From contig JADFYO010000022.1 in the NCBI GenBank assembly GCA_015233015.1, positions 1 to 51,530 of the forward strand: 51,530 nucleotides of DNA, read 5' to 3'. The notes beneath the pieces are model-generated. The model ran no database searches, was not told the DNA's origin, and worked only from the letters and a program-made list of their open reading frames with translations. The stretch is from Nitrospirota bacterium (GTDB lineage Bacteria; Nitrospirota; Thermodesulfovibrionia; Thermodesulfovibrionales; Magnetobacteriaceae). A program made the translations under genes and the position numbers. Each line of letters begins with the position of its first letter. The first letter of the stretch is position 1. Of this stretch, positions 29,471-32,217 are shown one piece after another.

Positions 29471-31081
29471 ATGGCAAATGCTATTGAAACGATAAAAAAC
29501 TGGTCTAATAAGAAAAAGGTAGTCATTGTGTTGTCTCTGGCGTTGGGGATTGCGGCTATAGTGTTATTGTTTTCCTGGTCGCAGATGCCAAACTACGCGG
29601 TATTGTTTGCCAATCTTTCCGAAGGCGATGCGGGAAAGATAGTCGAAAAACTACAACAGCTGAAGATACCATATCAGGTGACGTCAAACAGCATCATGGT
29701 TCCTGTGGAGAAGGTTTATGATCTCAGGCTTCAGATGGCTGCCCAGGGGCTTCCCCAGGGTGGTGGAATAGGTTTTGAAGTGTTCGATAAAGCAGACTTT
29801 CAGTCAACTGACTTCGTTCAAAAGCTCAACTATAAGAGGGCGCTCGAGGGGGAACTTGCCAGGACTATAACGGCACTTGGTGAGGTTGACAGGGCAAGGG
29901 TTCATCTGGCATTGCCTGAGAGGTCTCTCTTTGTGAAGGACAAACAGCAGCCGACGGCGTCTATCCTTGTTTCTTTAAAATCGTCGAAATCCCTGACGCA
30001 GGGCCAGATACAGGGTATTGTGCACCTTGTCTCGAGCAGCATCGAGGGGTTAAATCCCAACGATGTGACGATTGTCGATAGCAGCGGCAACATGTTGACA
30101 AGGCCGGCTGACGAAATGATGGGTTTGACGAGCACGGAGTTGGATTATCAGAAAAAATATGAAAAGGATATAGAGGCAGGTATTCGCGACATACTCGAGC
30201 CTGTGGTGGGCAAGGATAAAGTCAAAGTAAAGGTACACACCGAGCTGGACTTTTCGCGTACGGAAAAGACCGAGGAAGTATATGACCCTGATGGGGAAGT
30301 AATAAGAAGCAAGCAAACGACCAGTGAGGAGTCCAAGTCTGGCGCACCGGCTGGTGTAGTCGGCACCCAATCGAATCTGCCGGCAAAGGCCGCACCGCAG
30401 GCACAGGGCGGGCAGCAGCAGGTGAAGAAGACCAGCGAGACGATAAATAACGAAATCAGCAAGACGACAAGCCATGTTATAGCCCCATACGGCAACGTAA
30501 AGAAACTCACTGCCGCAGTTTTGGTCGATGGCGTTTATGCGATGAAACAAGACTCGAAAGACCCCAAAGACGTTGTATATACGCCGCATAAAGAGGAAGA
30601 GTTAAAGCAATACGAGAACCTTGTGAAGAAGGCCATTGGTTTTACCGAAAAGAGGGGAGACGAGGTAACTGTAATCAACATGCCATTTGAACCGCTGCCA
30701 AAGGAAGAGATCCTGCCGGAAGCGAAGAAAGGCCTTTCAGACTATATTAAGGATGGCGTGATAATTACAAAGTATCTGGCGCCTGTATTGTTAGCGCTGT
30801 TGTTTGTGGTATTCGTGGTCAGGCCGATAGTTAAATCTATGGTACAGGAGACAACTCCGGTTGTGAAGGAGATGCCATATTCCAGGTCAATGGCCGCCGC
30901 AGTAGAGCAGGAGGGCAAGAAGGAGCCGGCGGGGAAGGATAAGGTGAAGATGCCGCCTACGGAGGAGATGACTATTAAAAGAGAGATGTCAGGCTGGTCG
31001 GACTGGGTGAAAGAGAACCCCACGCAGGCTGCCACACTCATTAAAGAATGGATGGGGACGGGGACTGAGGAGCCGTCATAA
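29471..31081 (+). CDS. fliF: Flagellar MS-ring protein FliF
   Basis: Forms the inner-membrane MS ring; 536 residues. Membrane helix 1 is at about 17-37, followed by the YscJ/FliF ring-building domains (YAVLFANLSEGDAGKIVEKL; ALEGELARTITALGEVDRARVHLALPE) and a polar, Gln-rich insertion at about 305-325. Helix 2 is at about 433-453. The cytoplasmic tail ends with the FliG-binding segment GWSDWVKENPTQAATLIKEW. The stop overlaps the ATG of a small gene that repeats this segment. No strong ribosome binding site is visible. Confidence 0.96.
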   Translation: MANAIETIKNWSNKKKVVIVLSLALGIAAIVLLFSWSQMPNYAVLFANLSEGDAGKIVEKLQQLKIPYQVTSNSIMVPVEKVYDLRLQMAAQGLPQGGGIGFEVFDKADFQSTDFVQKLNYKRALEGELARTITALGEVDRARVHLALPERSLFVKDKQQPTASILVSLKSSKSLTQGQIQGIVHLVSSSIEGLNPNDVTIVDSSGNMLTRPADEMMGLTSTELDYQKKYEKDIEAGIRDILEPVVGKDKVKVKVHTELDFSRTEKTEEVYDPDGEVIRSKQTTSEESKSGAPAGVVGTQSNLPAKAAPQAQGGQQQVKKTSETINNEISKTTSHVIAPYGNVKKLTAAVLVDGVYAMKQDSKDPKDVVYTPHKEEELKQYENLVKKAIGFTEKRGDEVTVINMPFEPLPKEEILPEAKKGLSDYIKDGVIITKYLAPVLLALLFVVFVVRPIVKSMVQETTPVVKEMPYSRSMAAAVEQEGKKEPAGKDKVKMPPTEEMTIKREMSGWSDWVKENPTQAATLIKEWMGTGTEEPS

Positions 31082-31230
31082 TGTCAGAATTGGATAGAAT
31101 AATACCACAGCCGCCAGGGAAAAAGGAAACGCCTGAAGATATAGAGAGATGGTCCAAATGGGCTAAGGAAAACCCTGAACAGGCGGCCGTAATGATAAAA
31201 GACTGGATTGGAACTGTCGAAGGAGGATAA
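31081..31230 (+). CDS. 49-residue FliF-tail-like mini-protein
   Basis: Small gene between fliF and fliG; its ATG overlaps the fliF stop (TAATG) and its stop lies 3 bases before fliG. The product has a short Pro/Lys-rich start (IIPQPPGKKETPED) and then RWSKWAKENPEQAAVMIKDW. Against the FliF C-terminus this has 15 identities in 22 positions (W-S-x-W-x-K-E-N-P-x-Q-A-A-x-x-I-K-x-W-x-G-T). In FliF this region is the FliG N-domain-binding element. There is no membrane helix. It probably arose by duplication of the fliF 3' end and could bind FliG independently of the ring. AGGAGG near its end serves fliG. I know of no named family for it. Confidence 0.8.
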   Translation: MSELDRIIPQPPGKKETPEDIERWSKWAKENPEQAAVMIKDWIGTVEGG

Positions 31231-31233
31231 GAA

Positions 31234-32217
31234 ATGGAGCTGACCGGTGCGGAAAAAGCCGCGATATTTCTAACGGCAATTGGCGATGACGCCGCTGCTG
31301 AAGTCCTCAAAAGAATGGACTTTAAGGAAATAGGCAAAGTTAGTTCAATGATGTCAAAGATGCAATCACTGAAAGAGGATGAGATAAAGTCAGTCTTCAA
31401 GGAGGCATCTGCGAAGATTGAAAAGGGAGATGTATTTGTAGGCGGCGGCGAATACGTAAGGCAGATGCTGACTAAGGGCCTGGACGAAAAAAGCGCGAAA
31501 AAAATCCTGGAAAAAACCGCTGTTGAGGCAACTCTGGAATCATTAAAGAAGGTTGACGCAAAAAAACTGACCAACTTTTTGCTTACCGAGCATCCCCAGA
31601 CCATTGCCCTTATTCTTACTCTGCTTGATCCCGTACAGGCGGCAACTGTTTTAACCACTCTTCCAAAGTCATTAAAAGTTGATGTTGCCCTGAGAATGGC
31701 GATGACAGAAGGTATTCCGCTTGACGCAATCGAAGAGATAGAGGAAGTGCTGAAAAGCGAACTTGACCTTGACAGGAGCGAGGGCATTAAGGTTGGCGGC
31801 GTGAAAAAGTTTGCCCAAATCCTTAATTCCACAGATAAGGCAACGGAAGAGCTTATTTTAGAGAGCATAGAGAGCAACGACTACGAACTTGCCGATTCTA
31901 TAAGGCAGTTCATGTTTGTATTCGAGGACATTGTCAAGATATCTGACAGGGATGTTCAGGCTATACTTAAAGAGGTTAGCACCGAGGAACTGTCACTTGC
32001 TCTGAAGACTGCCTCTGATGCGCTGAAAGATTTGATATTTAAAAACATGTCGAAGAGGGCCGCCGAAATACTTAAAGAAGATATGGAGGTAAAAGGTCCG
32101 GTAAGGGTTTCAGAGGTTGAGAAGGCTCAGCAAAATATCATCAAGATAACAAGGAAGCTCAGCGAGGCCGGCAAGATAACGTTGCCCGGAAGTGGAGAGG
32201 AAGAGGCACTTGTATAG
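31234..32217 (+). CDS. fliG: Flagellar motor switch protein FliG
   Basis: Rotor protein joining the MS ring to the C ring and taking torque from the stator; 327 residues. The N domain (LTGAEKAAIFLTAIGDDAA) binds FliF. The middle domain has EHPQTIALILTLLDP (the EHPQ motif), and the C domain has FEDIVKISDRDVQAILKEVSTEELSLALK with the charged torque helix and a terminal KNMSKRAAEILKEDME. A strong AGGAGG lies upstream, inside the mini-gene. Confidence 0.97.
   Translation: MELTGAEKAAIFLTAIGDDAAAEVLKRMDFKEIGKVSSMMSKMQSLKEDEIKSVFKEASAKIEKGDVFVGGGEYVRQMLTKGLDEKSAKKILEKTAVEATLESLKKVDAKKLTNFLLTEHPQTIALILTLLDPVQAATVLTTLPKSLKVDVALRMAMTEGIPLDAIEEIEEVLKSELDLDRSEGIKVGGVKKFAQILNSTDKATEELILESIESNDYELADSIRQFMFVFEDIVKISDRDVQAILKEVSTEELSLALKTASDALKDLIFKNMSKRAAEILKEDMEVKGPVRVSEVEKAQQNIIKITRKLSEAGKITLPGSGEEEALV

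Follow-up and report, generated by a model that had tools for sequence, protein, structure and literature searches.

Docking of FliF to FliG sets how torque and ring size are passed on from the MS-ring to the C-ring; to our knowledge it is poorly known how FliG stays unassembled before this docking takes place. In the stretch of DNA analysed here (51,530 nucleotides, called the window below), which belongs to the genus Candidatus Magnetominusculus, a magnetotactic group of the Nitrospirota, a short frame resembling the end of FliF is found between fliF and fliG. This raises the question of whether the frame is a gene and, if so, what a second, free FliF tail could do beside FliG. As far as our searches reach, it is a conserved, previously unnamed small flagellar gene built from a known interaction element.

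The small gene between fliF and fliG

The window contains a standard flagellar cluster in the order flgB, flgC, fliE, fliF, small gene, fliG, fliH and fliI, followed by more flagellar genes, with the outer genes of the cluster named by inspection; all its features described here are on the + strand. The fliF gene (29471..31081) encodes an MS-ring protein of 536 aa recognised by family models in Pfam (PF01514, 6.5e-68; PF08345, 2.8e-47) and NCBIfam (TIGR00206, 9.5e-115, model positions 12-551 of 555). This FliF is intact and has its own C-terminal FliG-binding tail, EMSGWSDWVKENPTQAATLIKEWMGTG, located by profile match at 30983..31063, which is the segment copied by the small gene. The small gene itself (31081..31230), identified as an ORF with homologues, is a frame of 150 bases whose 49-aa, soluble product is MSELDRIIPQPPGKKETPEDIERWSKWAKENPEQAAVMIKDWIGTVEGG, followed by the stop codon. 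Its ATG overlaps the fliF stop TAA (31079-31081) as TAATG, and the ATG of fliG (31234..32217, 327 aa; TIGR00207, 2.3e-93; PF14842, 8.3e-27) lies at 31234, 3 bases past the small-gene stop. The Shine-Dalgarno sequence GAGGAG of the small gene falls within the last fliF codons (31067..31072), and that of fliG, AAGGAGG, lies in the final codons of the small gene (31220..31226). The initial annotation had described a 49-residue ORF between fliF and fliG; its coordinates, the TAATG overlap and the 3-base spacing are all exact, and so is the identity of 15 of 22 residues to the FliF tail that it had claimed (WSDWVKENPTQAATLIKEWMGT vs WSKWAKENPEQAAVMIKDWIGT).

The local BLOSUM62 score of the small protein against the FliF tail is 104, compared with a maximum of 69 in 20,000 shuffles, and the tail pattern W..W..NP.QAA..IK.W of FliF is present in the small protein. 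The two DNA copies are identical at 18, 20 and 8 of 23 codon positions 1, 2 and 3, respectively. Since their differences lie mostly at third codon positions, the duplication is old and both copies have been retained as protein. The copies of the genus have a fixed Lys where FliF has Asp, between the two tryptophans, and the packing positions are common to both. No match to FliF was obtained for the 49-aa protein in Pfam or NCBIfam, as only the tail is copied, and neither database holds any known family name for it. Searches with a tail profile gave only chance-level matches to PDB chain sequences, with no sequence link to 5TDY or 5WUJ, and plasmid records gave no match. Duplication of the fliF 3' end is the best explanation for the origin of the small gene.

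The product falls into two parts. From the pLDDT values and the alignment, the N-terminal part (31081..31146) is variable, proline-containing and charged, and is predicted to be disordered. The conserved core RWSKWAKENPEQAAVMIKDWIGT (31147..31215), supported by pN/pS and the structural model, is predicted to form two helices broken at Asn-Pro. Conservation covers about the last 25 residues (W.KW.K..P..A......W, with the helix break at Asn/His-Pro), and seven columns of the homologue alignment are invariant (W24, K26, W27, K29, P32, A35 and W42). The core pN/pS was 0.32 in frame, compared with 1.03 and 1.49 for the two alternative frames, and third positions change most (100/87/175 differences at the three codon positions); the signal is clear, although it comes from a small sample of 21 codons in eight genomes. 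Fourteen loci were compared, namely those of seven genomes of the genus, the MAG MYbin6, both operons of G001 in genus g2 and four genomes of genus g7. A purine-rich Shine-Dalgarno sequence precedes the gene's own ATG in 14/14 loci, and the distance to fliG is -4 to +9 bases in all of them. In each of the eight members of the Magnetominusculus group, the start codon of the small gene and the stop codon of fliF overlap. The gap to fliF ranges from -1 to +102 bases across loci; it amounts to 47 and 102 bases in genus g2, and coupling to fliF is loose there. Judged from its sequence, the small ORF is a real, translation-coupled operon gene under coding selection. The view that it is conserved, separately translated, spaced for translational coupling to fliF and fliG, and of the FliG-binding tail type in its conserved part thus holds. 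A chance ORF was ruled out by the conservation, the in-frame selection and the shuffle test.

Occurrence in relatives

A separate frame of 49-57 aa occurs at the same place in all six of the other Magnetominusculus genomes. The small gene also occupies this place in MYbin6 (67 aa), in four of four genomes of genus g7 (67-88 aa) and in both flagellar operons of G001 (97-98 aa), giving a range of 49-98 aa across the carriers. The initial annotation had made its reading depend on the gene being kept intact in close relatives; it is present there at the same place and its frame is unbroken. FliF retains the full tail in every carrier (every FliF examined), and there is one fliG per genome except for two in G001. 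The two clusters of G001 (L089 and L090), each of the form fliE-fliF-small gene-fliG-fliH-fliI, lie within one MAG and reflect either a duplication or two strains; the latter is possible because the MAG has a completeness of 79% and a contamination of 3%. In MYbin6, fliG is apparently split into two frames (L042:4366-4383), which may be a sequencing error.

Within the same family, genera g4 and g6 had no detectable copy of the small gene, and none was found in two outgroup Thermodesulfovibrio-like genomes, where fliG directly follows fliF. The fliF-fliG gap is 0-4 bases in G003, G006, L040 and L041, which have no small gene. Longer gaps with no recognisable small gene, of 180 bases in G008 (L009:about 1300-1480, -) and 81 bases in G004 (L011:about 1405-1486, -), are possible remnants of lost copies. 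Across 296 Nitrospirota genomes, the tail profile matched almost nothing but full-length FliF; the well-scoring short frames were limited to this family, and there were a few weak short-frame matches, e.g. in G116, G056, G139, G079 and G258. A tree of the 28-column tail fits either one origin or repeated copying (p-AU 0.16 with the copies held together), and the combined tree of FliF and FliG agrees with a single gain, possibly followed by one loss.

G007 and G002, which represent two more genera of this family, encode proteins of 100 and 122 aa away from fliF; in each, a linker joins a membrane helix to a FliF-type tail. The membrane microprotein of G007 (L018:1492-1794, -; G007:C3) comprises the last FliF membrane helix and the tail, and the final 99 positions of the FliF model align to it (2.8e-7). 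Its gene is flanked by genes for an M20-type peptidase and a PhoU-like protein, and this genome also has fliG separated from fliF. The G002 microprotein (L019:1489-1857 / L088:1694-2062, -; G002:C31) has the same plan, is encoded directly downstream of an aspS-like gene and matches the same part of FliF in FliF proteins (5.7e-5). The two are weakly similar to each other (20% identity), and no further free-standing copies of either type were found in 206 genomes of the class. Taking the soluble form between the genes together with the membrane form, duplicates of the FliF tail come in at least two architectures within this family.

Predicted docking and possible roles

Since the small gene and fliG share a frame in the window and in several relatives, the small protein and the FliG N-terminal domain (FliG-N, 31234-31527, the presumed binding partner) were modelled as a read-through product. 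The small protein was predicted to form two helices beside FliG-N (residues 18-30 and 32-44, pLDDT about 80), after a mostly disordered stretch of 20 residues (mean pLDDT 34 for residues 1-10 and 48 for residues 11-20). In the control, an ordinary FliF tail read through into FliG-N (L040), the same two helices were predicted at residues 24-34 and 36-48; because a read-through product links the helices covalently to FliG-N, the model is a consistency check and not an independent test of free docking. The small-protein model matched the FliG middle-domain armadillo of 8wiw (Z 10.7, 2.8 A, 92 residues) and the control matched FliG middle-domain armadillo structures (Z 12.1, 2.4 A, 90 residues), both alignments spanning the tail helices plus FliG-N, though Z values below about 13 are not strong alone for helical repeats. 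Such a match of both models is the behaviour reported for the co-folded domain of the FliF tail and FliG-N (PMC7355467). In the tethered form, the helix pair of the small protein is thus predicted to complete the FliG-N armadillo fold like the true FliF tail.

We hypothesize, with about an even chance of being right, that the small protein, which is soluble and translation-coupled, stands in for the FliF tail and holds FliG-N until FliF takes over. It consists of a leader predicted to be disordered, followed by a free version of the FliF C-terminal tail, and translational coupling would cause it to be made just before FliG. Most likely, its binding site on FliG-N would be the groove that otherwise takes up the FliF tail, and by co-folding with this domain it could keep new FliG in a folded, soluble state and out of assemblies. 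The numerous FliF tails, lying next to one another in an MS-ring, would then displace it from FliG-N. It would act in this way as an assembly placeholder or chaperone and may also buffer free FliG. The retained tail features point to FliG-N as the partner and to the FliF groove as the site, and translation just ahead of FliG together with the lack of a membrane anchor makes a stand-in the simplest role. Furthermore, FliG was reported to be unstable in E. coli without its partner FlhF (PMC11236974), and this need for a stabilising partner in a foreign host speaks for the placeholder role. On the other hand, FlhF is encoded in these genomes too, which may make another partner for FliG unnecessary. 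Moreover, a competitor made in equal amount could harm motor assembly, and the genera g4 and g6 without a detectable copy also count against this role.

Sequence alone cannot separate a placeholder from a ring filler, an inhibitor or an adaptor. It is rather unlikely that the small protein is a permanent motor part, sitting on C-ring FliG subunits without a FliF partner or tuning C-ring size. Its predicted interface would be the same as that of a placeholder, and a 33-mer MS-ring beneath a 34-mer C-ring was reported for Salmonella (PMC11087270). However, most work favours a 1:1 ratio of FliF to FliG, reported or assumed, in which FliF templates the size of the C-ring and the MS-ring sets its width (PMC12222027, PMC7355467), and this weakens the idea in the initial annotation that the small protein fills unpaired sites; sister genera also build motors without the gene. 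We likewise consider it unlikely that the small protein is a dedicated motor component, a free FliF-tail protein on FliF-less C-ring FliG by which motors tolerate or exploit unequal numbers of FliF and FliG, and that a related form anchored in the membrane plays this part in sister genera.

Titrating inhibitors are classically built as a free copy of the segment that binds the partner, and the small protein, produced in coupled fashion next to FliG, matches this design. As a dominant-negative microprotein it would block FliG-N and thereby limit the motors built or set the flagellar number. This is improbable, however, because constant coupling to fliF and fliG would give a fixed ratio and hence a poor regulator, and because mean identity is lower in the core (0.72) than in the tail of FliF (0.88). 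A role as an adaptor, with the tail on FliG and the variable arm recruiting a lineage-specific polar landmark, magnetosome or envelope structure, is quite improbable. The N-terminal arms of 20 to 73 residues and the segment IPDKS..K.E.TLK common to the arms of the two genus g2 copies would fit such a role, but the arm varies in length and sequence, is not alignable between genera, is as short as about 23 residues in the genome of the window and is predicted to be disordered.

It is very improbable that the frame is a duplicate that is decaying or neutral, or that it serves only to couple the translation of fliF and fliG. Its small size, its variable length and the overlap of its ends with its own Shine-Dalgarno site and that of fliG could be read in this way, but its core is under purifying selection, it is kept in at least three genera and no broken copies were seen among the small-gene loci compared. 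Moreover, genomes without the gene can have fliG directly after fliF, so a coupling spacer is not needed. Programmed frameshifting that would fuse the small protein to FliF and yield two FliG-binding tails has next to no likelihood despite the TAATG overlap in the genus, as the gap to fliF differs among loci (-1 to +102), each copy has its own start codon and Shine-Dalgarno sequence, and the varying frame offsets relative to fliF (2, 1 or 0) exclude a shared frameshift and, with the intact FliF tails, rule out a split FliF as well.

Being a conserved docking element that nature supplies in free form, the small protein makes it testable how FliG is held back before assembly, as it could be added to FliG or removed from it in vitro. 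The small gene also provides a genetic handle on ring stoichiometry, and it illustrates a simple route by which a new small motor gene can arise, namely duplication of the end of the adjacent gene.

Comparison with known systems

As described in reviews, the FliF tail in the FliF:FliG-N complexes of T. maritima and H. pylori (PDB 5TDY, 5WUJ) consists of two short hinged helices, like the small protein. With the FliF of its own genome, the small protein has the pattern W..W..NP.QAA..IK.W in common, and it is predicted to complete the FliG-N armadillo as the FliF tail does. Unlike FliF, it is free-standing, soluble and encoded by its own gene, with neither periplasmic domains nor a membrane helix, and it differs from the FliF tail in having its own disordered leader and the fixed Lys in place of the Asp of the genus FliF. 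The FliG-interacting domain of FlhF resembles the proposed small protein in that it is cytoplasmic and keeps FliG held and stable ahead of contact with FliF, but it has an unrelated fold and binds the middle/C-terminal part of FliG, leaving the FliF site free (PMC11236974), whereas the small protein would occupy that site. SwrB of Bacillus subtilis, compared by description only, is likewise a small accessory protein at the FliF/FliG assembly step, although it is a membrane protein described as acting through FliF (PMC4526659). Searching the literature for FliF-like small proteins, FliF paralogues and FliG chaperones yielded nothing relevant, in agreement with the initial annotation, which knew of no described protein of this kind. 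MicroProteins are single-domain paralogues that mimic a partner-binding segment, and their usual role is the titration of regulators. The small gene resembles them in that it arose as a copy of a single interaction segment from a larger protein, but unlike the usual MicroProteins it is translation-coupled to both original partners within a structural operon.
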